A stretch of DNA of 64,000 nucleotides from Archivesica marissinica. Lineage: Eukaryota; Mollusca; Bivalvia; Venerida; Vesicomyidae. Positions 1 to 60,888 of this stretch are shown in pieces. Positions within the stretch are counted from its first letter, which is position 1, and the number at the start of each line of letters is the position of its first letter. Under the pieces are notes generated by a model. The model ran no database searches, had not been told where the DNA came from, and saw nothing but the letters and a program-made list of their open reading frames with translations. The stretch lies in contig CM026398.1 in the NCBI GenBank assembly GCA_014843695.1, forward strand, positions 49,875,579 to 49,939,578. The letters run 5' to 3'. A program made the position numbers and the translations under genes.

Positions 1-32
1 ATATGCAGACAATTAGTTGTTTTCAACATGTA

Positions 33-62
33 ACACGCACGCACACACGCACACACGCACTG
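33..62. repeat. CACG-type microsatellite
   Basis: Short array of cacg/caca units; the mirror copy at 60717-60790 is much longer. Confidence 0.8.
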
Positions 63-734
63 TAATTTTATTATAACACATAGCTTTCATTGTAACAAAG
101 TTTCAAGACTGGTTTCTATACAACACCATTAATTGTAAGGCTGATTTCAATATAATATTGGTTCAATATGTTGATTTATACACACCACTGATTTCAATAT
201 ATACGTTCATTATAGAGCATGCTTCCTTATAATGCTCATCATTATATTGTCGAATTCCTTATAACGCCTAGATAAGGCTAGCTATTTATTATATGTCCAA
301 TGAGAGACATCGGTCAGTTACTGCCCCTGATTACTCCCTAAAAGTAGATTGGTCCTATTAAGTGTTTTCCTCTGTTTTTATCGTTGTTTCCTTTGCACAA
401 CATGCTAGCAATGTTATCCCACTATCGCCTTTTTGTGATTATTAAATTACTATATCTCAACAGATCTCCCACAGTATATGCAATGGGTACTTATTTGTAA
501 TACAATGTTATCACTTAATTAACACATTTTTGATAAAATCCCAATTATCATACCGCAACATCTGGTTAGAGCACAACAGTAAAAACAAAGGATTCTAACT
601 AAAAGGACGTATTCACATTTTGGAATAAATCGGACTTTATCTGTCAAGGGAGGTAATAGATAATTACAGATGTCTCTCATTACACGAAACTGACAGCGAT
701 AACGTTCTGCTGTGGATCCAAGATCAATCAATAG
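63..734. other. Intergenic/intronic sequence, nothing recognised
   Basis: No coding signal in any frame and no repeat found. It mirrors 60030-60715 on the right. By comparison with the right copy it lies inside the last intron of the chitin-binding gene. Confidence 0.5.
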
Positions 735-2066
735 GTGGCCCTCTTTAATTACTTGATACCATTTTATATCGTACAATTACTGTACACAAGAAGAAGTCCA
801 TATAGCACCATATTTCTTATTTCCGAGTACACGGCCGATTTACTCATACTGCTGATTTGACTCGTTCCATTAGAGATGTCAGCGTATTAACAAGACTTTA
901 GTGCGCCCAAAGCAGATGTAATCTCGCCATTTTATCCAAGCCTTATTAACTGAAATGTAAAATTGCGTTATTATAAAATATTTGACATGATCGCTGGTTC
1001 AACCTCGGTGCCCGTCCATGCCTGGAATACTGCTCGGAGGGGCACCCATAATCTCCATACGGTGTCTGCGAGTTTAAACCACAAAACACACAAGCATAAT
1101 GCATGGTGACTGTTTTAATTTTGAATTGATGCCGGTATATAAAAGTAAAGTAACGTGTTTGTTTATTATACAGACGGATCTGTAGCCCAGTGGTAACACG
1201 CTAGACTGGTAATCCAGGGATTGCAGGTTCGATCCCCCGTCTGACCATAATAACATTAACAGTCTTTCAGATGGGACATTAAACCGAGGTCTCGTGTCGG
1301 TGCTTTACACCGTGCACGTAAAAGAACCAGAGGAGACTGGAATGGGTCTCTGTCTGTATCATTGCACTATCCTCCAAAAATCTAAAATGACTAATCTCTT
1401 CAGGTGGCGTCGCTCATATGGGCAACTGGTAGCGACGATAAATAAACGTAAAACACACACTGTTTATTATACCAGGTCTCTCCTCCACTACGTGCACGTC
1501 GTGACCTAGGTACAGCTCACAACAGGAATATGGTTCAAGGACTTCGCTGACGGAAGCCGCGCTATCGGAATCGCGTGACTCTATACATTTACATATAGAG
1601 TACCATTCGACTAACTTCCCTACTTGGCGAGACAGCAACACTTAGTGCTGGCGACGACGGATATCTGGTTTTCTTTTCGTTGGCTCCTTCAAGTGGAGCG
1701 ATCTCCTTGAAGGAAGACGGTGGGACGTAGACTTCTTGATGGCGTGAGGACCCCAGCGAAGAAACCTGAACCATTATTGCTGCTGTGAGCTGGCAAATCG
1801 TGGAGGATGTGGCCCTACAAGGGAGCCCTTTGAAAGATGATACAGGACTTGTCACCCTGAGAAGAACGAAGATGCCTTTCCAGTTGTCTACATAAACAAC
1901 TTAGATGACAACGTAAACTTCGTAGAGAAACCAGTCGCCCAAATGCCTCGGCGGAGGTGACTATAAAGAAAACTTAGTTGGATTTGTTTATTATAGTGTC
2001 ACTCACCCCTATTTAAAGGGCCAGCACTTTCTGACTTGTGAGACACCTTTTTTTATGTACATCAGT
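735..2066. mobile_element. 1.33-kb insertion present only in left arm
   Basis: The right arm passes directly from the homologue of base 2067 to that of base 734 near 60002-60025. The inserted DNA carries a complete SINE (1171-1460) and about 500 bp (1472-1975) with no gene I can name, though the element-like phrase gctggcgacgacggat recalls sequence near primer sites of LTR elements. No clear terminal repeats bound the whole insertion, so it may be a deletion from the right arm. Confidence 0.7.
1171..1460 (+). mobile_element. tRNA-derived SINE, family A, copy 1 (complete)
   Basis: The tRNA-like head has an A box (tggtaacacgc) and a B box (ggttcgatccc), followed by a conserved body (ggtctcgtgtcggtgcttta) and a tail ending ataaataaacgtaaaacacac. 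It is flanked by a perfect 11-bp target-site duplication tgtttattata (1160-1170 and 1461-1471), which fixes both ends and shows L1-like retroposition. Absent from the right arm. Confidence 0.93.
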
Positions 2067-2346
2067 CCTTCCCGAATCCTATACTTATACATGTGCTTGT
2101 TTAGTTGTATTTAATTAAAGAATATCATATACATTTAGCAACTCTACAGCTTGATGATGGAGGAAGACACACCATCAGGAGACGGAATGTAAGCCCCAGC
2201 TTCATGATAAACGAAGACATTAGCTGCTCAGCATCAAGTTGGGCAGGCCCGGCAGAACTTACAAGCAAGGAACTGTAAATGGAAAAGCTCTTATTTAAAG
2301 TGGACAGGCCCCTATTTAAACCTGTTGCTATATTTAAGTGTACAGG

Positions 2347-2610
2347 CAGACGGATCTGTAGTATGTGGTAATCCAGTGATCGTAGATTCGCCCATCTGAC
2401 CATAATAAAATTAATAGTCTTTCAGATGGGACTTTGAACTGATGTCGGTGCTTTACACCGTGCACGTAAAAGAACCAGAGGATACTCTAGAATGGGTCTC
2501 TGTCTGTATCACTGCACTATCTTCCAACAATCTAAAATGACTAATCCCTTCAGGAGGCGTCGCTCATATGGGCAACCGGTAGCGACGATAAATAAACGTA
2601 AACCACACAC
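2347..2610 (+). mobile_element. SINE family A, copy 2
   Basis: Same head, body and tail as copy 1, with a deletion in the tRNA-like head. A target duplication near gtgtagag is still visible in the right-arm version. Lies in the last intron of the chitin-binding gene. Confidence 0.88.
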
Positions 2611-2701
2611 AGGTGTAGAGTTGCTAGAGTGAACGGGCACTTCAATCACTCGTGGCGAGACACCATCGGGGATGGTGACCTTATCTATAAATAGTACTCA
2701 C

Positions 2702-5700
2702 CAATCAGATCTATTTCCGCATGGGCCGCACGTTTTTTCTGCGGGCATGCACACGTCGTATAAAGCGTCAAACGTCTCCCCAGCTTGACACATCACATGG
2801 TTGGAGAACGTGCCTCCGCTGCAGACTGTGTATCTATCACAGCGGCCAAACTCATCCAAATAGAACCCGTCTGATAAATTTGTACAGTCTGGCATCATGC
2901 CACCATGTTCACGCGGTATTTGGTCTAGAGGGACGCACTCGTTGAGTTCCGGGTGGAAAAGTTGCGTTCTGCCGTTCACGTCTGCTTTGCAAATCTTTTG
3001 GGATATCGTGCGTTCTTTGTAACACTGTATAAAGTAGGGACTCCATAGTTTCATTTGATGGGCGTGCACACCGTCTGGTTTACCTTCACAGCTCGGGAAT
3101 CTAATACCGCACGGGATACAGTGTGACACAGGACATTGAGTATGCCTATAATCGCCTGGAGTTTAAAAACAAAAGAAACAGCAATTATTTACTAACTATA
3201 GATGTGTTCAAGCATGGCATATTGGTTCCGATGTTTACACTAATATATTTACAATGTTAGCAATTATATGCACTTATAAGTCGTATTTAAAGGGCTCGCC
3301 GTATGACTAAGATTTACGGTACACAAACTAAATACGTTGAACATAAACAACTAAACAGACGGATCTGTAGTCCAGTTGTAACACGCTGGACTTGTAATCC
3401 ATGGATCGCAGGTTCGATCCCCCGTTCTGACCATAATAAAATTAACAAGTGTTTCAGATGGGACTTTAAATCGTGGTCTCGTGTCGGTGCTGTACATCGT
3501 GCACGTAAAAGAATCAGAGGAGACTCTGGAATGGGTCTCTGTCTGTATCATTGCACTATCCTCCAAAAATCTAAAATGACTAATCTCTTCAGGAGGCGTC
3601 GCTCATATGGGCAACCGGTAGCGACGATAAATAAACGTAAAGCACGTACAACTAAAGCATTATCACCATGCGTCCCCTTTTTCTTGGTTTAAACACATTT
3701 ATTTTCTATCATGTACATGCTTATTTACAAAAATTAAAATAAGGAATGGGACAGAAAGCTATACAGCTTATGGTTGCCCTCTCCTTTTTTTCTTGAATAA
3801 ACTAATCGGCAAAATGCTTAAAACGAGAAACAAAATACATTGTTAATGAATGCGACTGTTCCCCCTTAAATCATCCAACTGTTTATTGTTGATTATCCAG
3901 TTGTTTTCATGGGTTTATTGCCCCCGCAAATCATACAATACATGCAGATAGCACACTTATACTAGTATAACGTAGATACTTACATCCATTTTTAAAATTT
4001 TGCCGATTGCCACATTTGACGTTTTCAAAGTGGTCGCATTTTCCGGTTATTGAGTTGAAGAGTTGCGGATAGGAGCACTCCTGCATGTATTGTTCGTAGT
4101 ATCTGGGTACATGGTCGTACCAAGTACTGCAGTTATAATACGCCTGACACTCTGTCGGATGGGGGATCACGCCACCTTTCAACTGGCATTGTTCCGCCAC
4201 AGTCATTGGACCTGCAACATTAGATCATTATATCATCACATAGTTCTAGACTATAGCCTACTGTACCTGGCATATACGTAACCTTGCCCCTACCAGACTG
4301 ACAATTCTCCTACCTAACCAGACTCCTAACTGACTTGGCCCCTACCTGGCCTGGCCCCTACCTGACCTGGCCCCTACCTGACTTGGCCCCTACCAGACTG
4401 ACAATTCTCCTACCTAACCTGGCTCCTAACTGACTTGGCCCCTACCTGACCTGGCCCATACCTGACCTGGCCCCTACCTGACTTGGCCCCTACCAGACTG
4501 ACAATTCTCCTACCTAACCTGGCTCCTAACTGACTTGGCCCCTACCTAACCTGGCCCTTACCTGACCTGGCTCCTACCTGATGTGGCTCAGAGGTCATAA
4601 CCCTTTTTTGAAACCCAGTATCGATACAACTCTCCGACTCAATGAAACGTTCGAGACATGTAATATAATTATCATCGTTTACATTTACAATTTGTATTTA
4701 CAGTCTACATCCGTTATGTCGAATTCAGTCGGACCGAACAAAATGCTTCGACATAACCGATGTTTGACTTAACGAAATTCGATATAAACGGAGCCAGTTA
4801 TATGTAAAATGATAGTGTATGAAACGGAACTTTGATCCGACTTCGAGATAACGGAATAATTCGACATAACCGACTTTGACATAACGGACGTATAACTGTA
4901 CTATGTTATATAATTTATTGTCATTTCTAATTTTGACCGTACATTTTTTGCGATATGTTTACCTTCTTTTTTTAATAGATACAAGTTTGATATTGTATTT
5001 AATTGAATGGCATAACACAATATTTACATATTTATACATAGTGGGAATCTCGAAGAAAGTGTATTGTTTTATCGGCCCCCCCCAGTAGACCTCTGTTTTA
5101 GTTCTCGTTTGTGTTGCTAAGGAACAACTTATGTTGTATAAAATGACCAGTCATTGTTAGAGGCCGGTTCCCGTCTGCCCCTAATAAAATTAACAGTCTT
5201 TCAGATGGGACGTTAAACCGAGGTCTCGTGTCGGTTCTTTACACTGTGCACGTAAAAGAACAGAGGGGACTCTGGAATGGGTCTCTAATTGCACTATCCT
5301 CCAACACTCTAAAATGACTAATCCCTTCAGGAGGCGTCGCTCATATGAGCAACCAGTTGCGACGATAAATAAACGTAAAACACACAAGAGACGGTTCGCT
5401 ACGTCCATCGGGTTGTCCTGTATTGCTATTTGCAGTGAGAGAACTATCTTAGAGCAGATAGTTTTACTATTTACTTCGTTTTTCATCATATTCTATTGCA
5501 GTTATCACATGACATGAAACAGATAGCTGCATTATCAAAGATATACTCACATTTTTATTACAAAACACAAACTGAAAAACTAAAAATATTCCAAAATGTT
5601 TAAAACTATGTATTTATATAGTTATTGTTTTTCATGTAAAAACACACTTATCCGAAGTGTGCGTTTTCTATGTCCTCTAGTATATTGCGCCAGGACCGTG

Positions 5701-6046
5701 ATACCCAACATACGAGATCAGCCACCTATATCACATAATGATAATATAATTATTATATAATGTATGGCTTACCGACATCAGGAGTTGTAGGTCGTATGTC
5801 TACTTTACAGTCATCATAAATACTGTCCTTTGGAACGCACACGTGCGCTGTTTTGCTGAACGAGGAGCCGTACGGACAATCGGGCATCTCTACCGGTCGT
5901 CCAAACACGCATAGGAAGTAACCCTTACAGTCCAACTTGGGTATCAGCTGGTATTGACCAGGCGTTGTGCACACAGGTTTTTGGGCGCTAATAGCACCAG
6001 CGTAAACCGCAGAAAGAAGCAATACTCCGAATGCAAACATTTTCAT
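2702..6046 (-). CDS. Secreted chitin-binding protein (ChtBD2 modules), left copy, 3' end outside window
   Basis: Three coding exons on the minus strand: 5773-6046, 3984-4211 and 2702-3155. Exon 1 encodes a signal peptide (residues 1-21, hydrophobic VLLLSAVYAGA) and a six-cysteine ChtBD2/peritrophin-A module (Cys 26, 40, 46, 57, 70, 80). Exon 2 holds a second such module (Cys 100, 113, 119, 137, 150, 158). Exon 3 is cysteine-rich and carries two further divergent modules. Introns interrupt in phase 1 after exons 1 and 2 and phase 2 after exon 3, with GTAAG or GTGAGT donors and CAG acceptors, so the frame stays open throughout. By family knowledge such proteins bind chitin in extracellular matrix, gut lining or mollusc shell. 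By comparison with the right arm, the last exon lies about 60 bp beyond the window edge. All splice sites seen here are intact. Confidence 0.85.
3356..3647 (+). mobile_element. SINE family A, copy 3
   Basis: Complete element flanked by the 9-bp duplication acaactaaa (3347-3355 and 3648-3656). Lies in intron 2 of the chitin-binding gene, opposite to its transcription. Confidence 0.9.
4285..4590. repeat. Minisatellite of ctgacctggcccctac-type units
   Basis: Nested array of 17-18-bp units (cctgacctggcccctac, with gactgacaattctcctacct interleaved) forming a higher-order period near 105 bp. Lies in intron 1 of the chitin-binding gene. Confidence 0.9.
4701..4898. mobile_element. pogo-like MITE, type 1 (left arm only)
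   Basis: 198 bp bounded by terminal inverted repeats cagtctacatccgttatgtc / gacataacggacgtataactg and flanked by TA on both sides. Similar internal motifs (gacataaccga, ccgacttcgagata) occur in the copy at 26726-26918. The TIR style and TA target fit Tc1/pogo-type non-autonomous elements. Confidence 0.85.
5164..5388 (+). mobile_element. SINE family A, copy 4, 5'-truncated
   Basis: Retains the end of the B-box region, the body and the tail, but lacks most of the tRNA-like head. In the right arm only 57 bp of its 3' end remain (57030-57086). Confidence 0.85.
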
Positions 6047-6135
6047 AAATTAGGTATTAATTACACGAAGAAATACTATCACTTTTATCTCATTGCGTTC
6101 AGTCTGGAATGAAGAACATGGTGCAGAGTGTTGCC

Positions 6136-6143
6136 TATTTATA
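6136..6143 (-). promoter_or_regulatory. TATA box of chitin-binding gene, left copy
   Basis: Reverse complement TATAAATA, identical context to the right copy, with the same initiator-like sequence about 33 bp downstream on the minus strand. Conserved between arms. Confidence 0.7.
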
Positions 6144-6407
6144 GGCAGTGGAAACCCGTCTTTGGGTTGGGTTTATCTTTATTGAGTAAACACATTAACG
6201 CATCTAAATGACGCAGCACGTCACGGAAGCACAGACGACGATATTTATGAATGCATATGCACACCTTAATCCGTCTCTGAACTAATGAATTGTCACATTA
6301 TGAACAGTTATTAGCTAGTTCCGTAATGAGTAACATTTCGTCTATCTGGAAAATATATGTTATCTGTAATGTATGAACGTCTTAGTGGTCATAAATTAGC
6401 TATAAAA

Positions 6408-6472
6408 CGTTGTTACTAAATATTGCGGTCGATTATTTAAAGACATTACTAAATATTGCGGTCGATTATATA
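6408..6472. repeat. 35-bp tandem repeat, 2 copies
   Basis: Two units containing actaaatattgcggtcgatt, upstream of the chitin-binding gene promoter. Expanded to 8 in the right arm. Confidence 0.9.
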
Positions 6473-6871
6473 AGATGGCTTGTCATTCATTCAGTCGTAT
6501 CAACCACACACTATTGTTGTCTGGAATTCAAAACCAATTATTTTAATATTATAAAATTTGTTAAAGATCTTTTTGATACACCATTGGCTTGACACTATAT
6601 ATGCAAAACGCTTAGGACATGTCCAAGCATATATGTATTTAATGACACCCCGTCACTATCAGAGTAATTAATTCTCGACCATACAAACACACCAGTAGTT
6701 CTTGATTTGTGTGTATTTATCAGCGTAATATCGCTTTTGTCAATGGGCGGCCCAACTCATTAATAGATTTCTCAAATGAACATTGTGTGAGATAAGCATA
6801 CAGATAATTGAAACAAAACGCGCAAACACAGGACGTTTGCGACTATATATCATTGTATACTGATTTAAGAA

Positions 6872-7122
6872 CACTGTAGTCCAGTGGTAACAAGCTGGAC
6901 TTGTAATCCAGGGATCGCAGGTTCGATCCCCCGTCTGACACTAATAAAATTAACAGTCTTTCAGATGGGACTTTAAACCGAGGTCTTGTGTTGGTGCTGT
7001 ACACCGTGCACGTAAAAGAACCAGAGGAGACTCTGGAATGGGTCTCTGTCTGTGTCATTGTACTATCCTCCAAAAATCTAAAATGACTAATCTCTTCAGG
7101 AGGCGTCGCTCATATGGGCAAC
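6872..7122 (+). mobile_element. SINE family A, copy 5, 3'-truncated
   Basis: tRNA-like head (tggtaacaagc ... ggttcgatccc) and body present; it stops at catatgggcaac, without the tail. Confidence 0.88.
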
Positions 7123-7389
7123 ACTTTACATCAATAAATATTATGGGCATATACCAAATATGGTTAAATTTGTTAAGTTAATGCAATTACAAAATGAAAA
7201 TGCAGTTCGGGAATTATCTTTATACATTTGCAAAGCATTTGAACGTCGTAGATCAATTGTCAATATCTAAACAGATCTTAATAGTTAATATTGTTTTCAA
7301 TGATTAATACTCAATTCGTGTTGTTTTGTTTGTTTGTTTGTGTGCGTTGTTTTTGTTTATAAGAATGTATGTCTCTCCTATAATTGGTC

Positions 7390-7669
7390 GTTGAGATTAG
7401 TGTCCGTCACCATATTACCATACATGTTTCACTTTGTAATGTTTTGTATTGATGCTTTGTTGAGATTAGTGTCCGTCACCATATTACCATACATGTTTCA
7501 CTTTGTAATGTTTTGTATTGATGCTTTGTTGAGATTAGTGTCCGTCACCATATTACCATACATGTTTCACTTTGTAATGTTTTGTATTGATGCTTTGTTG
7601 AGATTAGTGTCCGTCACCATATTACCATACATGTTTCACTTTATAAAGTTTTGTATTGATGCTTTGTTC
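7390..7669. repeat. 69-bp tandem repeat, 4 copies
   Basis: Units start gttgagattagtgtccgtca and end tattgatgcttt. Because 69 is a multiple of three, the array reads as an open frame of 23-residue repeats; nothing else supports coding. Confidence 0.95.
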
Positions 7670-7754: not shown

Positions 7755-8118
7755 AACATATTGCAGGGTGTATATTCTGAATCATCACGATTTGGTTAAT
7801 AAATAAATAAAGGTTAATAAATAAAGATTATTTTACAATAATTGCAAAGTAAGCTTGAACATCTTATATTAATCACTCTCATTGGCGCAGAGTTTGGTTA
7901 ATAGACACTAGACGAAAGATAACATATCATCTAGGTGTACACTGTTGAACCCAGTAATTAAGCTAATGTTTCCTTATTCGAATATACTTCATTAGAGAAA
8001 CTGCCTGTCAACAGTTCGTCCCAGTTTCTCAGATCTATTATGTGTTTGAATACGTTACTTCAAAAACGTCTGCTGTGATGACAAATACAGATGAGAAATT
8101 ACAGCCATAGTATAATAT
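7755..8118. other. Non-coding spacer
   Basis: AT-rich; no gene or repeat beyond a short aataaataaagg duplication near 7798-7828. Mirrors 53865-54231. Confidence 0.5.
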
Positions 8119-8128
8119 TACTCATACT

Positions 8129-8425
8129 GGTGTGTGTTTTACGTTTATTTATTGCTGCTACCGGTTGCCCATATGAGCGACGCCTCCTGAAGAGATTAGT
8201 CATCTTAGATTTTTGGAGGATAGTGTAATAATACAGAGTGAGAGAGACCCATTCCAGAGTCTCCTCTGGTTTTTTTACGTGCACGGTGTAAAGCACCGAC
8301 ACGAGACCTCGGTTTAACGTCCCATCTGAAAGACTGTTAATTTTATTAGGGTCAGACGGGGGATCGAACCTGCGATCCCTGGATTACCAGTATAGCGTGT
8401 TACCACTGGGCTACAGATCCGTCTG
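8129..8425 (-). mobile_element. SINE family A, copy 6
   Basis: Complete reverse-oriented element with a perfect 10-bp target duplication tactcatact (8119-8128 and 8426-8435). Confidence 0.92.
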
Positions 8426-8499
8426 TACTCATACTACAATATAAAACAGCATTTATATATTTAAGTACGGTAACACAGGAAAGGATGAGGGAGAATAGC

Positions 8500-8965
8500 A
8501 GTTGGAGTCACATGGAAGGATGAGAATGTGGGATGTTGAGTGAGAACAAGATAGATAAGGAGGGAGACGAGGATGAGGAGGAGGTAGAATAGGATGATGA
8601 TGAGGGAGGAGAGGATGATGATGAGGGAGGAGAGAATGATGATGAGGGAGGCGAGTATGATGATGAGGGAGGAGAGTATGATGAGGAGGGATGAGAGGAG
8701 GAGTAGGGGAGAGGAGAGGAGGATGAGAGAATGAGGGATGAGGAGGATGAGGGAGGAGATGGTGAGGAGGAGGAGATGATGAGGAGGGAGGAGAGGATGA
8801 TGATAAGGGAGGAGAGGATGAGGAGGAGGGGATGATGAGGGATGAGAGGATGGTGAGGAGGGTGAAGAGGATGCTGAGGAGGGAGGAGAGCAAAGTAGTA
8901 GGAGTGATATGGAAGGATGAGAATATGGGATGTTGAGGGAGAAAAGGATGGATGACGAGGGAGAA
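8500..8965. repeat. Purine-rich GAGGATGAT tandem array
   Basis: About 460 bp of gaggatgatgatgaggga-like units. The minus strand is open in three frames as Ser/Pro/Leu low-complexity peptide, which is the signature of a simple repeat and not of a gene. The strong purine/pyrimidine strand bias could favour triplex or slipped structures. Confidence 0.92.
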
Positions 8966-9153
8966 GAACACACACTGTATGTATTGTTAAAATCATAAAG
9001 CAAACTGAAGATACAGCCCATTCTTTACGTAGTTAAACATCATTTCTATAGTTCAATAGTTATTAGTTACCTTTTCAACCTCTTTCAAAACGAGCCGGAA
9101 TATGTTGTGGTCGTCTTGCATTCTTTCGACCCATCATCCAGAGTGTCAAGCTA

Positions 9154-9366
9154 CAGGGGCGTAGCTTGACCGGAATCGATGTGTAGGCCAACTTAAAACT
9201 TAAGACGGGAGAGGGGTCCGGTGGTCGTCCCCAGGAAAGCTATTTATAGCGTAATATAATTTAATCCTGGCCTCCCGATTTTTGTTGCAGAATTTGCATT
9301 TTTAATTTTTCGATTTTTCGGGGGGGGGGGGAAAGCCTACACGGCCTATAGTAAGCTACGCCAATG
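9154..9366. mobile_element. hAT-like MITE (caggggcgtagc ends)
   Basis: Terminal inverted repeats caggggcgtagctt / aagctacgccaatg, about 213 bp with an internal poly-G run. Flanks share agcta, compatible with a decayed 8-bp target duplication. Confidence 0.75.
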
Positions 9367-9540
9367 AGCTATACTCTAATATGAAGCGTAACAATGCCAA
9401 CTATGCTGATGTTGTGATGAGTTTGTTTTTTGAAATATTTTAGTGATGTTCGAGTCCCACTTCAGATCGTCGGGGAGGGTGGCTGCTAGGTAATACGATG
9501 ATGCATTTTCTTGGAATTGTTGGAGCACCACTGTGGCCTG

Positions 9541-9670
9541 GAGGTTATAAAACCTTTCTCCAGTCTCAAAACTCAGTCTCAATTGTCTGATTGGTTCAGC
9601 TGACAGTACCACTCAGAATCAACCAATCAGATCACTTGAGCTTGAGATCTGAGAAAAGTTTTATAACCTC
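9541..9670. mobile_element. Foldback MITE (gaggttataaaa ends)
   Basis: Nearly palindromic: gaggttataaaa...ctcagtctcaa...ctgattggtt on one side and aaccaatcag...ttgagctt...ttttataacctc on the other, with a short loop. Confidence 0.85.
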
Positions 9671-9916
9671 GGGGCTTCACAAGCTGTAGCAATTTGATGA
9701 TTTGCTGATGATGCCCATTAAATATAATGTCTTGGTTTTGAATTTCCCAATGTAGTTTCTCAATGTCAAGATATATTGCTGACGTATAAGGTATATATTG
9801 TTACAGCTTTCAGTATGTATCTTTAGCGACTAAACGTCTCGATGCACATGCTATATGCATGCAATCAGTTGTTTTCAGCTCGATTGTGCAACACGTATTT
9901 ATAACATTAGATTAAT

Positions 9917-10190
9917 CGTTCTCGAGACCTATTTCCTTGTGGAATCCACAGCATCCAGGGAGAGAGAGAGGGAGAGAGATAGAGGGAGAGAGAGAGAGAG
10001 AGAGAGGGAGAGAGAGGGAGAGAGAGGGAGAGAGAGGGAGAGAGAGGGAGATAGAGAGAGATGGAGAGGGAGAGAGAGAGAAGAGGAAATGTGGATTTAA
10101 GTGTATTGACTATCTTGGTTTTGACGGAGTTCGAATTCACAACATCTGGGTTACAAGGCGGACAGCGTACCCATCACACCGCGGAGGCTC
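9917..10190 (-). mobile_element. tRNA-derived SINE family E with GA tract
   Basis: Minus strand reads gatgggtacgctgtccgcct ... gttgtgaattcgaactcc, a tRNA-like head with a degenerate B box, then a body containing a (GAGAGAGG)n tract at 9957-10085. The body end (ctcgagaacgattaat) resembles that of family B. Confidence 0.7.
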
Positions 10191-10315
10191 CATACAGGTC
10201 ATTTTCAAATGCTCCTGAAAACTGCACTATTTACTGCCACATTAATATTATATTATCGCGTGACGCAAAAGATGAATTGTATTACAAAGAAGAATTGGGG
10301 GTGATGGTAAAGTCG

Positions 10316-10565
10316 CACCAACATCTAAGATCATATGTCGCCTCTCCGGATAGTACTGGTAGAGGAAGACTCCAGGTTCCACTCCGAGCAGTATTTACTG
10401 CACGGGCGGACACCCGGGTAGAACCACCGACCTTCCACAAGCCAGCTAGATAGCTTCCTCACTTTAAAGCATTCGACACCCCAGTGGGATTCGAACCTGC
10501 AGCCGTGAGGTACAGGTGGCTTGAAGTCAATGACTTTAACAACTCTGTCACGGAGGCCTTCAGAA
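10316..10565 (-). mobile_element. tRNA-derived SINE family D
   Basis: Minus strand: ggcctccgtgacagagttgt as A-box region and ggttcgaatcccactggggt as B box, followed by a body with cgggtgtccgcccgtgcagt. A related piece occurs at 63100-63296. Confidence 0.78.
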
Positions 10566-10895
10566 AGCCAGGGTACTTAATAATATAGCATGCACTCAAT
10601 AATATCACACATCCTGTTTTACTATCCTGGTAGACACTCGTCAATGTGTACGTAATCAAATACGTGTAATCCTTTCGTCAAATACATCATTTTAAACTAT
10701 GTTTACCCCCGCATTGTGCTGAGTGGCGTTCCGCCTATGGTATGACGTTATTTACACCCATTACTTGCCACGGTCACTTGAGATTGTTATGAATATTTGC
10801 TAGTGCTACATGCGAACAAATATATAATGCATGTACAATGGATATATATTATATTTGTTTTACTCAACACATTTTCAGATATTATATCTAACCCC
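10566..10895. other. Non-coding spacer
   Basis: No gene or repeat recognised. Mirrors 51012-51350. Confidence 0.5.
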
Positions 10896-12788: not shown

Positions 12789-12832
12789 ACTAACGACAAC
12801 AAAAACAAAACAAAAGTTGCCGACACACTTAC

Positions 12833-12974: not shown

Positions 12975-12989
12975 AGTGTGTCCCGTGTT

Positions 12990-45411: not shown

Positions 45412-45419
45412 GTATAAAT

Positions 45420-49547: not shown

Positions 49548-50190
49548 GTAAGTGTGTCGGCAACTTTTGTTTTGTTTTTGTTGTCGTTAATGTGTATGTT
49601 AATTTGAATATCTCAAAGGAAAGCAGTATGTAACCCTTACCTCAGTTGTAGTTTATGGGCATACAGCACTTAGGTGGTGCAATTGCAAGATAGATATAAT
49701 ACATTAATATACTATAAATACTCTGGGGAAAATGGCGATTTGGCTACAAAAAAATTAAGAGCCAGAGCAGGCCTTAATTTAATTTGGATTTATTGTTTCA
49801 ATTTACAGTGACAAAATTCGAGACATTGTCAGTTGTATTTCGCTTTTGATTTGTTTCCTAACAAAAACAATAATACAGGTAAATAGTGTCATTGAATCCA
49901 GGTAAACGGTGAAAATTAAATGACACGTGTGACACGGTGCAAGTTTGTGAAAAAAACAACAACATCGGATGATAAAATTATTTTACATTCCAGGTACATA
50001 TCCTCAATATTGTTAGATTCCATTTTTTATTTATTTAAATTTTGTTAGAGCTATTAATTGTTTATATATTATTATTCAATAGCAGACGGTTGATTTGTTG
50101 TTTGTTGTTGTTGTTGTATATGCATTTAAAGGGAGAGTAATAGTGCAAGAATAGTGTATTGGGAAGGGAGATAATAAAAAAGTAGTCCGG

Positions 50191-50242
50191 CAGTGAGATA
50201 TAATCCATATCTCACCGATGAGATATGGATTATATCTCACTG
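50191..50242. repeat. Perfect 24-bp-arm hairpin, right counterpart
   Basis: Mirror of 11682-11733, stem unbroken. Confidence 0.95.
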
Positions 50243-50575
50243 ATAGAACACTGTATTTCATCAATTAGCATAAAATAAATTACATGTATAACACAAAAAA
50301 TGTTACAAATGACATAAATAGTGAATGGTTTGGATTGGAAAACAAGTTTTCAGAAAACTTATATTAATTCCTCTCTTGTCTTTATATGTAGGCTACGGTA
50401 GATGTTCCTTCCTCTTCTATGACAATTACCCATGTGGACCACCGCCTCGCCCCACCCCGTCCCACATTGTAGCCCAACATTGAATAAACGTAAATGTTGT
50501 TGTTGTCGTTTCCCCAATCTGAATATGTATTTTATAACGCAGTGTGTGTCACTTCACATTGTTTTATTCATAGAC

Positions 50576-51011
50576 TTAAAGCGACACTACATCGGCGAAA
50601 ACAAATGTCTGCAGAATGTAATTCGCTATTATATGGAAATATTATTTCCAATTATTTGCCTCAAAAACTGAGTATTTCAACAAATAAACAAACGTCGTAT
50701 ACGCGGTTTGTTGACATAATAAAATAATGTAAATAGGGTCGAAATTCATGCGTAATACAACGCGTTTATCCTGAATAACACGAGATATGGTACATATTTA
50801 CCGTGATGTCTCACATTTGTGCCATATCTTTATCTCTAAACGAAAGTATCGCGTGTTTAGTATTGACTCCAATGACAAACAAACGTCAATTCAGGAGCAT
50901 GGATGACTGTTATATGAAATCATACTTTATTCGGAAGAATTTGTAATAGCAATGCATGTATACGTGCACAAATGCATTTTATTTGGTTTTTGCGATGTAA
51001 TGTCGCTTTAA
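50576..51011. mobile_element. TTAA-bounded MITE, right counterpart
   Basis: Mirror of 10896-11332. Confidence 0.75.
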
Positions 51012-51350
51012 GGGGTTAGATATAATAATATCTGAAAATGTGTTGAGTAAAACAAATATAATATATATCCATTGTACATGCATTATATATTTGTTCGCAT
51101 GTAGCACTAGCAAATATTCATAACAATCTCAAGTGACCTTGGCAAGTAATGGGTGTAAATAACGTCACGCCATAGGTGGAACGTCACTCAGCACAATGCC
51201 GCTGCGGGGGTAAACATAGTTTAATATGATGTATTTGACGAAAGGATTACACGTATTTGATTACGTACACATTGACGAGTGTCTACCAGGATAGTAAAAC
51301 AGGATGTGTGATATTATTGAGTGCATGCTATATTATTAAGTACCCTGGCT

Positions 51351-51600
51351 TTCTGAAGGCCTCCGTGACAGAGTTGTTAAAGTCATTGACTTCAAGCCAC
51401 CTGTACCTCACCGCTGCAGGTTCGAATCCCACTGGGGTGTCGAATGCTTTAAAGTGAGGAAGCTATCTAGCTGGCTTGTGGAAGGTCGGTGGTTCTACCC
51501 GGGTGTCCGCCCGTGCAGTAAATACTGCTCGGAGTGGAACCTGGAGTCTTCCTCTACCAGTACTATCCGGAGAGGCGACATATGATCTTAGATGTTGGTG
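51351..51600 (+). mobile_element. SINE family D, right counterpart
   Basis: Mirror of 10316-10565. Confidence 0.78.
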
Positions 51601-51739
51601 CGACTTTACCATCACCCCCAATTCTTCTTTGTAATACAATTCATCTTTTGCGTCACGCGATAATATAATATTAATGTGGCAGTAAATAGTGCAGTTTTCA
51701 GGAGCATTTGAAAATGACCTGTATGGAGCCTCCGCGGTG

Positions 51740-52015
51740 TGATGGGTACGCTGTCCGCCTTGTAACCCAGATGTTGTGAATTCGAACTCCGTCAAAACCA
51801 AGGTAGTCAATACACTTAAATCCACATTTCCTCTTCTCTCTCCCTCTCTCTCCCTCTCTCTCTCTCTCCCTCTCTCTCTATCTCCCTCTATCTCTATCTC
51901 CCTCTTCTCCCTCTCTCTCTCCCTCTCTCTCTCCCTCTCTCTCTCCCTCTCTCTCCCTCTCTCCCTGGATGCTGTGGATTCCACAAGGAAATAGGTCTCG
52001 AGAACGATTAATCTA
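51740..52015 (+). mobile_element. SINE family E, right counterpart
   Basis: Mirror of 9917-10190; the CT tract differs in length and phase. Confidence 0.7.
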
Positions 52016-52250
52016 ATGTTATAAATACGTGTTGCACAATCGAGCTGAAAACAACTGATTGCATGCATATAGCATGTGCATCGAGACGTTTAGTCGCTAA
52101 AGATACATACTGAAAGCTGTAACAATATATACCTTATACGTCAGCAATATATCTTGACATTGAGAAACTACATTGGGAAATTCAAAACCAAGACATTATA
52201 TTTAATGGGCATCATCAGCAAATCATCAAATTGCTACAGCTTGAAGCCCC

Positions 52251-52387
52251 GAGGTTATAAAACTTTTCTCAGATCTCAAACTCAAGCTCAAGTGATCTGA
52301 TTGGTTGATTCTGAGTGGTACTGTCAGCTGAACCAATCAGACAATTGAGACTGAGTTTTGAGACTGGAGAAAGGTTTTATAAACTCC
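52251..52387. mobile_element. Foldback MITE, right counterpart
   Basis: Mirror of 9541-9670. Confidence 0.85.
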
Positions 52388-52562
52388 AGGCCACAGTGGT
52401 GCTCCAACAATTCCAAGAAAATGCATCATCGTATTACCTAGCAGCCACCCTCCCCGACGATCTGAAGTGGGACTCGAACATCACTAAAATATTTCAAAAA
52501 ACAAACTCATCACAACATCAGCATAGTTGGCATTGTTACGCTTCATATTAGAGTATAGCTCA

Positions 52563-52771
52563 ATGGCGTAGCTTCCTATAGGCCGTGTAGGCTTTTTTCC
52601 CCCCGAAAAATCGAAAAATTAAAAATGCAAAATCTGCAACAAAAATCGGGAGGCCAGGATTAAATTATATTACCCTATAAATAGCTTTCCTGGGGACGAC
52701 CACCGGACCCCTCTCCCGTCTTAAGTTTTAAGTTGGCCTACACATCGATTCCGGTCAAGCTACGCCCCTGT
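52563..52771. mobile_element. hAT-like MITE, right counterpart
   Basis: Mirror of 9154-9366. Here the flanks read gagcta on both sides. Confidence 0.75.
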
Positions 52772-52959
52772 AGCTCGACAGTCTGGATGATGGGTCGAAA
52801 GAATGCAAGACGACCACAACATATTCCGGCTCGTTTTGAAAGAGGTTGAAAAGGTAACTAATAACTATTGAACTATAGAAATGATGTTTAACTACGTAAA
52901 GAATGGGCTGTATCTTCAGTTTGCTTTATGATTTTAGCAATACATACAGTGTGTGTTCT

Positions 52960-53475
52960 TCTCCCTCCTCATCCATCCTTTTCTCCCTCAACATCCCATA
53001 TTCTCATCCTTCCATATCACTCCTACTACTCTGCTCTCCTCCATCCTCAGCATCCTCTTCACCCTCCTCACCATCCTCTCATCCCTCAACGTCCCCTCCT
53101 CCTCATCCTCTCCTCCCTTATCATCATCCTCTCCTCCCTCCTCATCATCTCCTCCTCCTCACCATCTCCTCCCTCATCCTCCATCCTCCTCATCCCTCCT
53201 CATTCTCTCATCCTCCTCTCCTCTCCCCTACTCCTCCTCTCATCCCTCTTCATCATACTCTCCTCCCTCATCATCATACTCGCCTCCCTCATCATCATTC
53301 TCTCCTCCCTCATCATCCTCTCCTCCCTCATCATCATCCTCTCCTCCCTCATCACCATCCTATTCTACCTCCTCCTCATCCTCGTCTCCCTCCTTATCTA
53401 TCTTATTCTCACTCAACATCCCACATTCTCATCCTTCCATGTGACTCCAACTGCTATTCTCCCTCATCCTTTCCT
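52960..53475. repeat. Pyrimidine-rich CTCCTCATC tandem array, right counterpart
   Basis: Mirror of 8500-8965 with small internal length differences. Confidence 0.92.
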
Positions 53476-53526
53476 GTGTTACCGTACTTAAATATATAAA
53501 TGCTGTTTTATATTGTAGTATGAGTA

Positions 53527-53850
53527 CAGACGGATATATAGTCCAGTGGTAGCATGCTGGACTGGTAATCCAGTGATCGCAGGTTCGATCCCCCGCCTGA
53601 CCCTAATAAAATTAACAGTCTTTATGATCGGACGTTAAACCGAGGTCTCGTGTCGGTGCTTTACACCGTGCACGTAAAAGAACCAGAGGATACTCTGGAA
53701 TGTGTCTCTCTCTGTATCATTACACTATCCTCCAAAAATTAAGAAATGATGTTTAACTAAGTAAATAATGGGCTGTATGATGACTAATCTCTTCAGGAGG
53801 CGTCGCTCATATGGGCAACCGCTAGCGACGATAAATAAACGTAAAACACA
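53527..53850 (+). mobile_element. SINE family A, right counterpart of copy 6
   Basis: Same insertion as 8129-8425, with an extra ~35 bp near 53745-53780 that repeats part of the neighbouring sequence (aatgatgtttaactaagtaa ... gggctgtat), a local duplication absent from the left. Confidence 0.88.
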
Positions 53851-54231
53851 TACTTGTATGAGTAATATTATACTATAGCTGTAATTTCTCATCTGTATTT
53901 GTCATCACAGCAGACGATTTTGAAGTAACGTATTCAAACACATTATAATAGATCTGAGAAACTGGGACGAACTGTTGACAGGCAGTTTCTCTAATGAGGT
54001 ATATTCGAATAAGGAAACATTAGCTTAATTACTGGGTTCAACTGTGTACACCTAGATGATATGTTATCTTTCGTCTAGTTTCTATTAACCAAACTCTGCG
54101 CCAATGAGAGTGATTAATATAAGATGTTCAAGCTTACTTTGCAATTATTGTAAAATAATCTTTATTTATTAACCTTTATTTATTTATTAACCAAATCGTG
54201 ATGATTCAGAATATACACGCTGCAATATGTG

Positions 54232-54302
54232 GCTTATTACGAAATAAAGTTATATCATTATCATAAATGATAATAATGATATAACTTTATTTCGTAATAA
54301 GC
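54232..54302. repeat. Perfect 30-bp-arm hairpin, right counterpart
   Basis: Mirror of 7684-7754, again abutting the 69-bp array. Confidence 0.95.
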
Positions 54303-54305
54303 CAT

Positions 54306-54802
54306 TTCAGGCCAATGAACAAAGCATCAATACAAAACTTTATAAAGTGAAACATGTATGGTAATATGGTGACGGACACTAATCTCAACAAAGCATCAGT
54401 ACAAAACATTACAAAGTGAAACATGTATGGTAATATGGTGACGGACACTAATCTCAACAAAGCATCAATACAAAACATTACAAAGTGAAACATGTATGGT
54501 AATATGGTGACATACACTAATCTCAACAAAGCATCAATACAAAACATTACAAAGTGAAACATGTATGGTAATATGGTGACGGACACTAATCTCAACAAAG
54601 CATCAATACAAAACATTACAAAGTGAAACATGTATGGTAATATGGTGACGGACACTAATCTCAACAAAGCATCAATACAAAACATTACAAAGTGAAACAT
54701 GTATGGTAATATGGTGACGGACACTAATCTCAACAAAGCATCAATACAAAACATTACAAAGTGAAACATGTATGGTAATATGGTGACGGACACTAATCTC
54801 AA
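54306..54802. repeat. 69-bp tandem repeat, 7 copies
   Basis: Same unit as the left array with three more copies. One unit carries catac for cggac. Confidence 0.95.
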
Positions 54803-55071
54803 CGACCAATTATAGGAGAGACATACATTCTTATAAACAAAAACAACACAAACAAACAAACAAAAAAAACAACACGAATTGAGTATTAATCATTGAAAAC
54901 AATATTAACTATTAAGATCTGTTTAGATATTGACAATTGATCTACGACGTTCAAATGCTTTGCAAATGTATAAAGATAATTTTCGAACTGCATTTTCATT
55001 TTGTAATTGCATTAACTTAACAAATTTAACCATAGTTGGTATATGCCAATAATATTTATTGATGTAAAGTG

Positions 55072-55320
55072 TTACCCATATGAGCGACGCCTCCTGAAGA
55101 GATTAGTCATTTTAGATTTTTGGAGGATAGTACAATGACACAGACAGAGACCCATTCCAGAGTCTCCTCTGGTTCTTTTACGTGCACGGTGTACAGCACC
55201 AACACAAGACCTCGGTTTAAAGTCCCATCTGAAAGACTGTTAATTTTATTAGTGTCAGACGGGGGATCGAACCTGCGATCCCTGGATTACAAGTCCAGCT
55301 TGTTACCACTGGACTACAGT
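55072..55320 (-). mobile_element. SINE family A, right counterpart of copy 5
   Basis: Mirror of 6872-7122, 3'-truncated at the same place. Confidence 0.88.
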
Positions 55321-55719
55321 GTTCTTAAATCAGTATACAGTGATATATAGTCGCAAACGTCCTGTGTTTGCGCGTTTTGTTTCAATTATCTGTATGCTTA
55401 TCTCACACAACGTTCATTTGAGAAATCTATTAATGAGTTGGGCCGCCCATTGACAAAAGCGATATTACGCTGATAAATACACACAAGTCAAGAACTACTG
55501 GTGTTTTTGTATGGTCGAGAATTAATTACTCTGATAGTGACGGGGTGTCATTAAATACATATATGCTTGGACATGTCCTAAGCGTTTTGCATATATAGTG
55601 TCAAGCCAATGGTTTATCAAAAAGTTCTTTAACACATTTTAAAATATTAAAATAATTGGTTTTGAATTCCAGACAACAATAGTGTGTGGTTGATACGACT
55701 GAATGAATGACAAGCCATC

Positions 55720-55992
55720 TTAAATAATCGACCGCAATATTTAGTAATATGTCTTTAAATAATCGACCGCAATATTTAGTAATATGTCTTTATATAATCG
55801 ACCGCAATATTTAGTAATATGTCTTTATATAATCGACCGCAATATTTAGTAATATGTCTTTATATAATCGACCGCAATATTTAGTGATATGTCTTTATAT
55901 AATCGACCGCAATATTTAGTAATATGTCTTTAAATAATCGACCGCAATATTTAGTAATATGTCTTTAAATAATCGACCTCAATATTTAGCAA
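55720..55992. repeat. 35-bp tandem repeat, 8 copies
   Basis: Eight near-identical units (cgaccgcaatatttagtaat core), about 300-600 bp upstream of the right gene's TATA box. Confidence 0.93.
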
Positions 55993-56270
55993 CAACGTTT
56001 TATAGCTAGTTTATGACCACTAAGGCGTTCATACATTACAGATAGCATATATTTTCCAGATAGACGAAATGTTACTCATTACGGAACTAGCTAATAACTT
56101 TCACTTTTCATAATGTGACAATTCATTAGTTCAGAGGCGGATTAAGGTGTACATGTGCATTCATAAATATCGTTGTCGTCTGTGCTTCCGTGAAGTGCTG
56201 CGTCATTTAGATGCGTTAATGTGTTTACTCAGTAAAGATAAACCCAACCCAAATACGGGCTTCCACTGCC

Positions 56271-56278
56271 TATAAATA
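56271..56278 (+). promoter_or_regulatory. TATA box of chitin-binding gene, right copy
   Basis: TATAAATA lies 97 bp before the ATG. An initiator-like TCATTC with its A at 56304 sits 33 bp downstream of the first T, the spacing expected of a TATA/Inr core promoter. Confidence 0.7.
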
Positions 56279-56367
56279 GGCAACACTCTGCACCATGTTC
56301 TTCATTCCAGACTGAACGCAATGAGATAAAAGTGATAGTATTTCTTCGTGTAATTAATACCTAATTT

Positions 56368-59300
56368 ATGAAAATGTTTGCATTCAGAGTATTGCTTCTT
56401 TCTGCGGTTTACGCTGGTGCTATTAGCGCCCAAAAACCTGTGTGCACAACGCCTGATCAGTACCAGCTGATACCCAAGTTAGACTGTAAGGGTTACTTCA
56501 TATGCGTGTTTGGACGACCGGTAGAGATGCCCGATTGTCCGTACGGCTCCTCGTTCAGCAAAACAGCGCACGTGTGCGTTCCAAAGGACAGTATTTATGA
56601 TGACTGTAAAGTAGACATACGACCTACAACTACTGATGTCGGTAAGCCATACATTATATAATAATTATATTATCATTATGTGATATAGGTGGCTGATCTC
56701 GTATGTTGGGTATCACGGTCCTGGTGCAATATACTAGAGGACATAGAAAACGCACACTTCGGATCAGTGTGTTTTTACATGAAAAACAATAACTATATAA
56801 ATACATATTTTTAAACATTTTGGAATATTTTTAGTTGTTCAGTTTGTGTTTTGTAATAAAGATGTGATATATCTTTGATATTGCAGCTATCTGTTTCATG
56901 TCATGTGATAACTGCAATAGAATATGATTAAAAAAACGAAGTAAATATTAAAAATATCTGCTCTAAGATAGTTCTCTCACTGCAAATAGCAATACAGGAC
57001 CAACCGAGGGACGTACCGAACCGTCTCTTGTGTGTTTTACGTTTATTTATCGTCGTTACCGGTTGCCCGTATGAGCGACGCCTCGGCGGCGTGTGTCATC
57101 AATCAAATAGTACATGTACGTATAGCTGTGTTCTTGTAAACAAGTTGTTGATATAAACATAAGTAATATGTATCCATTATCTAAAGACGTCTAAAATAAG
57201 CCAGCCCACCATTAAACCTACTATTTGAGCTGTTGACCAATGCGCTGGTACACGTCTAAAATAAACCAGCCCACCATTAAACCTACTTTTGAGCTGTCGA
57301 CCAATGCGCTGGTACACGTTATGACATTATGACCATGCATAAACATTACTGGGAAACTATTAGGTCCAATTACATACAATATGTGTTTATTAGTACTAGT
57401 GAGGCTGGCGTATTTGGTTCTATGTCACTACGGGCGTCAGGCAGCCTTACTGCGCAGATGTTGATCGCGAAGCGAGGATACCTGTCTCAAACGTTTCATT
57501 GAGTCGGAGAGTTGTATCGATACTGGGTTTCAAAAAAGGGTTATGACCTCTGAGCCACATCAGGTAGGAGCCAGGTCAGGTAGGGGCCAGGTCAGATAGG
57601 GGCCAAGTCAGTTAGGACTCAGGTTAGGTAGGAGAATTGTCAGTCTGGTAGGGGCCAAGTCAGGTAGGGGCCAGGTCAGGTAGGGGCCAGGCCAGGTAGG
57701 GGCCAAGTCAGTTAGGAGTCCGGTTAGGTAGGAGAATTGTCAGTCTGGTAGGGGCAAGGTTACGTATATGCCAGGTACAGTAGGCTATAGTCTAGAACTA
57801 TGTGATGATATAATGATCTAATGTTGCAGGTCCAATGACTGTAGCGGAACAATGCCAGTTGAAAGGTGGCGTGATCCCCCATCCGACAGAGTGTCAGGCG
57901 TATTATAACTGCAGTACTTGGTACGACCATGTACCCAGATACTACGAACAATACATGCAGGAGTGCTCATATCCGCAACTCTTCAACTCGATAACCGGAA
58001 AATGCGACCACTTTGAAAACGTCAAATGTGGCAATTGGCAAAATTTTAAAAATGGATGTAAGTATCTATGTTATACTAGTATAAGTGTGCTATCTGCCTT
58101 TATTGTATGATTTGCGGGGGCAAAGAACGCATAAAAACAACTGGGTAATCAACAATAAACAGTTGAATGATTTAAGGGGGAATAGACGCATTCATTATCA
58201 ATGTATTTTGTTTCTCGTTTTAAGCATGCAACGCATTTGGCAGGTTAGATTATTCAAGAAAAAAAGGAGAGGGCAACCATAAGCTGTATAGCTTTCTGTC
58301 CCATTCCTTATTTTAATTGTTGTAAATAAGCATGTACATGATAGAAAATAAATATGTTTAAACCAAGAACAAAAGGGATTCGTGGTGATAATGCTTTAGT
58401 TGTGTCTGTTTTACATTTATTTATCGTCGCTACCGGTTGCCCATATGAGCGACGCCTCCTGAAGAGATTAGTCATTTTAGATTTTTGGAGGATAGTGCAA
58501 TGATACAGACAGAGACGCATGCTAGCGTCTCCTCTGGTTCTTTTACGTGCACGATGTACAGCACCGACACGAGACCTCGGTTTAAAGTCCCATCTGAAAG
58601 ACTGTTAATTTTATTATGGTCAGAACGGGGGATCGAACCTGCGATCCATGGATTACCAGTACAGAGTGTTATAACTGACTACAGATCCGTCTGTTTATGT
58701 TCAACGTATTTAGTTTGTGTACCGTAAATCTTAGTCATACGGCAAGCCCCTTTAAATACGACTTTTAAGTGCATGTATATAATTGCTAACATTGTAAATA
58801 TGTTAGTGTAAACATCGGAACCAATATGTCATGCTTGAACACATCTATAGTTAGTAAATAATTGCTGTTTCTTTTGTCTTTAAACTCTAAGCGATTATAG
58901 GCATAATCAATGTCATGCGGCACACTGTATTCCGTGCAATATTAGATTCCCGAGCTGTGAAGGTAAAGCAGACGGCATGCACGCCCATCAAATCAAATTA
59001 TGGAGTCCCTACTTTGTACAGTGTTACAAAGAACGCACGATATCCCAAAAGATTTGCAAAGCAGACGTGAACGGCAGAACGCAACTGTTCCACCCGGAAC
59101 TCAACGAGTACGTCCCTCTAGACCAAATACCACGTGAACATGGTGGCATGATGCCAGACTGTACAAATTTATCAGACGGGTTCTATTTGGATGAGTTTGG
59201 CCGCTGTGATAGATACACAGTCTGCAGCGGAGGCACGTTCTCCAACCATGTGATGTGTCAAGCTGGGGAGACGTTTGACGCTTTATACGATGTGTGCATG

Positions 59301-60737
59301 CCCGCAGAAAAATCGTGCGGCCCATGCGGAAATAGATCTGATTGGTGAGTACTATTTATAGACAAGGTCACCATCCCCGATGGTGTCTCGCCACGAGTGA
59401 TTGAAGTACCCGTTCACTCTAGCTACTCTACAAATGTGTGTGGTTTACGTTTATCTATCGTCGCTACCGGTTGCCCATATGAGCGACGCCTCCTGAAGGA
59501 ATTAGTCATTTTAGATTGTTGGAGGATAGTGCAGTGATACAGACAGAGACCCATTCTAGAGTATCATATGGTTCTTTTACGTGCACGGTGTAAAGCACCG
59601 ACATCGGTTCAAAGTCCAATCTGAAAGACTATTAATTTTATTATGGTCAGACGGGCGATCGAACCTACGATCACCGGATTACCAGTCCAGCGTGTTAACC
59701 ACATACTACAGATCCGTCTGCCTCTACACTTAAATATAGCAACAGGTTTAAATAGGGGCCTGTCCACTTTAAATAAGAGCTTGTCCATTTACAGTGCATT
59801 GCGTGTACGTTCTCCAGGGCCTGCCCAACTTGAGGCTGAGCAGCTAATATCTTCGTTTATCATGAAGCTGGGGCTTACATTCCGTCTCCTGAGGGTGTGT
59901 CTTCCTCCATCATCAAGCTGTAGAGTTGCTAAATGTATATGATATTCTTTAATTAAATACAACTAAACAAGCACACATATAAGTATAGGATTCGGGAAGT
60001 ACTGATTGATTGATTGATCTCGGATCCACAGCACAACGTTATCACTGGAAGTTTCGTGTAATGAGAGACATCTCTAATGTTCTATTACCTCCGTTGGCAG
60101 ATAAAGTCTGATTTATTCCAACATGTGAATAGGTCCTTTTAGTTAGAATCCTTTGTTTTTACTGTTGTGCTCTAACCAGATGTTGCGGTATGATAATTGG
60201 GATTTTATCAAAAATGTGTTAATTAAGTGATAACATTGTATTACAAATAAGTACCCATTGCATATACTGTAGGAGATCTGTTGAGATATAGTAATTTAAT
60301 AATCACAAAAAGGCGATAGTGGGATAACATTGCTAGCATGTTGTGCAAAGGAAACAACGATAAAAACAGAGGAAAACACTTAATAGGACCTATCTACTTT
60401 TAGGGAGTATTCAGGGGCAGTAACTGACCGATGTCACTCATTGGACATATAATAAATAGCTAGCCTTATCTAGGCGTTATAAGGAATTCGACAATATAAT
60501 GATGAGCATTATAAGGAAGCATGCTCTATAATGAACGTATATATTGAAATCAGTGGTTTGTATAAATCAACATATTGAACCAATATTATATTGAAATCAG
60601 CCTTACAATTAATGGTGTTGTATAGAAACCAGTCTGGAAACTTTGTTACAATGAAAACTATATGTTATAATGAAAACTATATGTTATAATAAAACCTATA
60701 TGTTATTATTACATTAGTGTGTGTGTGCGTGCGTTCG

Positions 60738-60777
<40 letters not shown>

Positions 60778-60888
60778 TGTGTGCGTGTTACATGTTGAAA
60801 ACAACTAATTGTCTACATATGTAAGGCAGACATTTATTATCTGTGATATTTCTATTCTTTATTTGTATTTTCTTTTTGTTTCAGTTAA
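56368..60888 (+). CDS. Secreted chitin-binding protein (ChtBD2 modules), right copy with splice lesion
   Basis: Exons 56368-56641, 57830-58057, 58891-59344 and a terminal exon supplying only four coding bases (60885-60888). Together they would encode 319 residues: signal peptide and four ChtBD2-like cysteine modules, ending in Ser-Asp-Cys. The terminal exon follows a strong acceptor (tctttttgtttcag); its first base completes the Cys codon and is followed at once by TAA. Two defects set this copy apart from the left one. The exon 3 acceptor reads ctctaa|gcg instead of ctccag|gcg, so the AG is lost or shifted by one base, which would break the frame. In exon 3 the conserved Cys of NECVPLD is Tyr (NEYVPLD). 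It may be a damaged allele. Exon structure is inferred from splice consensus and frame. Confidence 0.8.
57030..57086 (-). mobile_element. SINE family A 3' remnant (right counterpart of copy 4)
   Basis: Only the 3' end (gcgacgcctc back to the acgtaaaacacac tail) is left. The sequence then switches abruptly to DNA unrelated to the left arm. Confidence 0.8.
57087..57495. other. Right-arm segment not homologous to left arm
   Basis: Replaces left 4650-5330. It contains a two-fold tandem duplication of about 65 bp (57191-57320, unit including ccagcccaccattaaaccta) and no recognisable gene. Confidence 0.7.
57563..57760. repeat. Minisatellite, right counterpart
   Basis: Mirror of 4285-4590 with fewer higher-order units. 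Confidence 0.9.
58402..58693 (-). mobile_element. SINE family A, right counterpart of copy 3
   Basis: Mirror of 3356-3647. A few bases of the upstream target duplication are deleted. Confidence 0.88.
59436..59720 (-). mobile_element. SINE family A, right counterpart of copy 2
   Basis: Mirror of 2347-2610; here the flanking duplication (tgtagag) is easier to see. Confidence 0.88.
60717..60790. repeat. GTGC-type microsatellite, expanded
   Basis: About 17 gtgc/gtgt tetramers, the longer counterpart of the array at 33-62. Confidence 0.85.

Follow-up and report, generated by a model that had tools for sequence, protein, structure and literature searches.

A mirror across a nominal gap in Archivesica marissinica is probably a scaffolding product within a redundant five-contig cluster

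The marks of false duplication in genome assemblies, in the part of Ko et al. 2022 (PMC9516828) used here, are half depth, gaps between the copies, discordant linked reads, and one-copy k-mers; one allele-specific tandem segmental duplication is mentioned in the same text. Ngaro retrotransposons, in the portion of PMC4157794 that concerns us, are described as having split direct repeats and a tyrosine recombinase, and no methyltransferase.

The locus analysed here resembles the false (heterotype) duplications of Ko et al. 2022 (PMC9516828), as presented in the text cited, in that near-identical copies stand next to each other on one scaffold with a gap between them, here the 1000-N gap at window positions 30598-31597. 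It differs from them in that the copies are inverted, that a part is present in more than two copies, and that one duplication lies within a single contig. The latter, a direct duplication in contig k3 with microhomology at its junction, which contig k4 lacks, is similar to the allele-specific tandem segmental duplication mentioned in PMC9516828, although our case is putative as to phase and copy number.

The window, i.e., the whole stretch of 64,000 nucleotides that was analysed, corresponds to C13:49875579-49939578; the genome has 1,537,303,305 bases in 2,808 contigs. The surroundings of the window (C13:49775579-50039578, 264 kb) were examined as well and contain seven gaps, all of 1000 N, which delimit eight contigs, k0-k7, the first and the last being clipped by the ends of the 264-kb range. 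The features on which the analysis is based are the following (window positions, negative numbers lying to the left of the window).

1-30597 (+): left arm, the right-hand part of k3 (C13:49861380-49906175, 44,796 bp)
30598-31597: assembly gap, exactly 1000 N, equal in size to the other 6 gaps of the 264-kb range
31598-64000 (-): right arm, k4 (C13:49907176-49940654, 33,479 bp), which ends at window 65076
1-7500 (+): zone T, left copy, starting at about -6914, matched in the five contigs k1-k5
735-2060 (+): 1.3-kb stretch missing in the right arm, matched in k1, k2, and k5
7800-21582 (+): zone U, left copy, whose tiles match k4, with partial matches only in k1 and k2
21583-29338 (+): zone X, left copy, with further copies in k3 (X1, about -13934 to -6906), in k2 (partial), and in the right arm
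27177-27386 (+): exon for the NOPCHAP1 domain (PF15370 in Pfam, E 2.5e-7, a match above the cut-off)
28185-28448 (+): open frame after the NOPCHAP1 exon, with no Pfam match of its own
29339-30597 (-): 3' end of a Ngaro-like retrotransposon, truncated at the gap
31598-33116 (+): 3' end of a Ngaro-like retrotransposon, including the 259 bp next to the gap and a direct repeat of ~124 bp
33117-40754 (-): zone X, right copy, homologous to the left copy
41126-54500 (-): zone U, right copy, from which the 42000-45000 probe was taken
54876-64000 (-): zone T, right copy, continuing to ~64286, in total nearest to k5 (0.82%)

The contig k3 begins 14,198 bp to the left of the window. Parts of the same sequence are also found in the neighbouring contigs k1 (27,918 bp), k2 (27,845 bp), and k5 (12,948 bp), k2 having the orientation of k3, and k1 and k5 that of k4. 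In tandem-repeat-masked sequence, no chain of at least 1.5 kb was found between k6 or k7 and any of k1-k5, and the single weak chain between k0 and k2 (1,560 bp in 11 pieces, 91%) appears to consist of dispersed repeats.

The window contains an inverted duplication, with positions 1-30597 matching 31857 to ~60822 in reverse and in colinear order; the initial annotation, which had described an inverted duplication of about 60 kb centred on the gap, with its left arm ending at 1000 N, is borne out in this respect. The minus-strand BLAST matches extend from 63/60679 to 30597/31857. Their longest block has 13,003 aligned columns with 98.75% identity, and the block adjoining the gap has 1,417 with 99.5%. 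The whole-arm alignment is colinear with indels of at most 1,326 bp, and length differences of the kind attributed earlier to transposable elements and VNTRs are indeed seen. Judged on the sequence, such a duplication is far beyond chance. The identity of 97-99% given previously holds for the inner part, where 311 of 22,945 aligned bases between 7000 and 30597 are mismatched relative to the mirror (1.36%, a value that counts some misaligned bases near 29,000), but not for the outer 7 kb, where the BLAST blocks are at 93.9-98.3% and the computed mismatch of 8.0% is inflated by misaligned stretches. The mismatch is unevenly distributed (variance/mean of 3.4 in 43 windows of 500 bp), and the stretch 19500-23100 is nearly identical to its mirror (5 mismatches in 3,590), the arms elsewhere differing by ~1.4-1.7%. 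Position 60822, taken earlier as the end of the duplication, is the projection of the left edge of the window and was rejected as a breakpoint, because the homology between the arms extends ~6.9 kb beyond the left edge and, on the right, to about window 64286. The 1.3-kb stretch at 735-2060 is more likely to have been lost from, or never present in, k4 than to be new in the left arm, since it is found in four of the five contigs.

The mirror is observed only across the gap, because inverted matches within the contigs do not exceed 373 bp. The longest one is in k7, the maxima for k3 and k4 being 298 and 261 bp, and no inverted self-chain of at least 1.5 kb was found in the eight contigs, none of which contains an inverted junction in continuous sequence.

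The 259 bp between the gap and the start of the mirror (31598-31856) had been described as unique and as a possible anchor between the arms. They are repetitive, with 36 genome matches including the sequence itself, 33 of which span all 259 bases at 89-100%, and the 'unique spacer' was accordingly discarded; these bases form one end of a Ngaro-like retrotransposon that is dispersed in the genome. The repeat that holds these bases runs 1,260 bp further into both arms, so k3 and k4 both stop inside the same repeat. At its 3' end the direct repeat is split, k4 635-757 resembling k4 1396-1519, and the 5' start of the element, as seen at copy L034:37 and at the end of k1, equals the stretch from k4 758 (window 32355). 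In one copy (L031), an open frame upstream resembles the tyrosine recombinase family PF00589 (E 6.4e-5, 23.2 bits versus a cut-off of 27.1). A frame for a GDSL-type hydrolase (PF13472) lies downstream of the recombinase-like frame, at L031:1039-1701. The dispersed repeat fits a Ngaro-like element, an assignment based on the 3' part of the element. It is like the Ngaro retrotransposons, as described in the cited part of PMC4157794, in the 3' split direct repeat and, less surely, in the recombinase-like frame before it, and unlike them in that the recombinase match falls below the Pfam curated cut-off and that the second frame is of the GDSL type.

Other ends of the cluster fall at the same element. 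The contigs k4 and k5 end exactly at the base where k1 enters the 5' start of the element, and k1 extends 74 bp beyond this point, 72 of these matching the element start. As proof of a tandem junction, these 72 bp were rejected, because they are the 5' start of the retrotransposon; all that they establish is the presence of a Ngaro-like element after Z, the sequence that flanks T in k1. Several contigs of the cluster thus break at copies of a repeat whose members are still 95-99% alike, and how the two sides of the gap are oriented cannot be read from the sequence itself. The start of k1 (C13:49803617-49810018) is a 6.4-kb array with a 37-bp unit, which is possibly another reason for a contig break in the cluster.

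The zones were delimited by tiling k3 from position 7300 in 400-bp pieces, each of which was sought in k1-k5; zone T in k3 extends from 7284 to ~21700 (below ~7.5 kb in the window). Its divergence was measured on five chosen blocks, ~4.4 kb for each of the ten contig pairs. The closest pairs are k4-k5 (0.82% mismatch), k1-k5 (1.41%), k2-k3 (2.06%), k1-k3 (2.11%), and k1-k4 (2.13%), followed by k1-k2 (2.61%), k2-k5 (2.66%), k2-k4 (2.82%), k3-k5 (2.82%), and k3-k4 (3.10%). The two arms, k3 and k4, are thus the most distant of the ten pairs in total, k3 being nearest to k2 and then to k1. Taken singly, they are the most distant pair in two of the five blocks (T2 and T3), yet they are among the closer pairs in T5 (1.3%), and T is therefore a mosaic. 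These relationships, with the arms least related in total, likely explain the drop in identity away from the gap.

A 3-kb probe from zone U (42000-45000) has, among the best 40 of 6,780 candidates in the assembly, two full-length matches, one in each arm, which differ by ~1.4%; the other matches, at least 78, are partial and mostly due to a dispersed element, and these genome counts are lower bounds. The two arms are each other's closest copies in U and in most X tiles, whereas in T, by totals, other contigs are closer. For comparison, 3-kb probes from the flanking contigs have one full-length match each, with otherwise short or dispersed repeats for k6 (best 40 of 9,820 candidates) and a partial relative in addition for k0 (best 40 of 17,750 candidates). 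The redundancy is therefore local and not general, as far as these two probes tell, and this speaks for a genuine multi-copy element underlying the cluster, besides unmerged alleles. The partial relative of the k0 probe is located at C13:53547840-53548894, on the same chromosome at a distance of 3.8 Mb and in the opposite orientation; it covers parts of the first 1.06 kb of the probe at 89-98%, much of it dispersed repeat.

Zone X carries the NOPCHAP1 domain exon, which is present in all four X copies of the cluster and for which nothing was found among solved structures. The open frame at 28185-28448 we tentatively take, from its position, to be the next part of the NOPCHAP1 gene. A probe from X (34000-37000) matches k4, k3 twice, and k2, all in the cluster, the rest being short repeats (best 40 of 16,381 candidates). 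In k3, X forms a gap-free direct repeat (264-7292 and 35781-42564) with a spacing of 35 kb, i.e., a tandem segmental duplication with direct copies in one gap-free contig and a defined junction. The first copy is joined to T at k3 7284, and the same junction, identical in the 90 bp compared, is found at k2 10470, with 6 bp (AAGTGA) common to both parent sequences at the join. The break falls within the open frame downstream of the NOPCHAP1 exon, such that only the first 60 of its 88 residues match in the k2 copy and in copy X1 of k3, the latter having an internal stop in addition. These X|T junctions inside contigs are direct, not inverted. In k4, k1, and k5, the flank at the edge of T is Z (790 bp in k4) rather than X, and k4 has no X|T junction. 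The arms do not remain one pair out to their outer ends, k3 passing into X1 and k4 into Z at the T edge.

The arms carry several other recognizable sequences. An open frame for a chitin-binding (peritrophin-A, CBM_14) protein, with the Pfam match on the left copy, lies at 2698-3162 (-) and 58884-59348 (+); it is 59-61% identical to Mya arenaria proteins, closer relatives being at 79-80%. A FLYWCH/MULE transposase is located at 14324-15730 (-) and 46546-48020 (+), interrupted on the left by an in-frame stop between two frames and on the right as overlapping frames; it is 63% identical to Ruditapes philippinarum proteins, and a 480-aa relative, P0001, is 97% identical over 94% of the query. These protein similarities indicate a bivalve, the transposase being a poor guide to kinship. 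A 69-bp tandem repeat at 7390-7668, 54318-54803, and k1 10479-11270, which has 4 copies in k3, 7 in k4, and 11.5 in k1, is also found on many other chromosomes.

We consider it likely that the mirror is a product of scaffolding, in which two contigs of alleles or near-identical copies were placed in opposite orientation inside a redundant five-contig cluster. According to this proposal, k3 and k4 would, in U and X, represent the alleles, or near-identical copies, of a single locus; both contigs would have broken within the same Ngaro-like retrotransposon and would then have been set side by side, in opposite orientation, across a nominal gap of 1000 N. The haplotype of k3, to which k2 would be a relative, would carry the direct duplication, with X cut beside the NOPCHAP1 exon and joined to T, while that of k4 would have one complete T-U-X unit, reaching from the edge of one Ngaro-like element into another. 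The simplest addition is that k1, k2, and k5 may represent further units of a direct array of variable copy number. We infer the allelism of k3 and k4, the choice of orientation by the scaffolder, and the copy number per haplotype.

The initial annotation had favoured two haplotigs of one locus joined head to head. The fixed size of the gap agrees with this, as do the arms in their inner ~23 kb, whose behaviour as two alleles is supported at the sequence level, but the reading is not supported for the whole 60 kb, because five successive contigs carry the outer segment, the arms are the least related pair in the T totals, and the duplication junction of k3 is absent in k4. Moreover, the single matches of the neighbouring probes indicate that in places the assembly has only one of the haplotypes, so that simple retention of haplotigs is a less convincing explanation. 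The five T copies and the three Z-T ends (k1, k4, and k5) exceed what two haplotypes of a single-copy locus can provide, and therefore part of the duplication is probably real, or else the sample is not one diploid.

The divergence of ~1.4% in the inner part could also be that between recent paralogues instead of alleles, and in one alternative k3 and k4 are directly repeated T-U-X units of a single tandem array on the same chromosome, separated by a Ngaro-like element, one of them having been flipped by the scaffolder. Such an array would account for the T copies in five contigs, for the low relatedness of the arms in T by totals, and for the Ngaro-like ends that, as read from k1 and k4, have the same orientation at both ends of a k4-type unit. 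However, only two full-length matches were obtained with the 3-kb U probe (best 40 of 6,780 candidates), and the left flanks of the k4-type (Z) and k3-type (X|T) units differ, which fits two haplotypes at least equally well; we regard this arrangement as unlikely. A true palindrome with more than 30 kb per arm, having one or more Ngaro-like elements at its centre and a direct array of such units next to it, appears more improbable still, and we give it very little credence. The colinear mirror of this length is what a palindrome would produce, the inner parts of the arms are more alike than the outer ones, and gene conversion could account for the 3.6-kb block that has 5 mismatches in 3,590 bases; against this stand the gap at the very centre, the termination of both arms in a many-copy repeat, outer arm parts that by totals are not mutual closest copies, contig-internal junctions that are direct, and the lack of a long inverted junction in all eight contigs.

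Where a nominal gap separates contigs that mirror each other, the neighbouring contigs should be compared as well, a comparison that at this locus exposes both a likely artefact and a probably real direct duplication. Taken literally, the scaffold would lead to an over-count of genes, the NOPCHAP1 exon being present four times and the chitin-binding stretch being matched in all five contigs.
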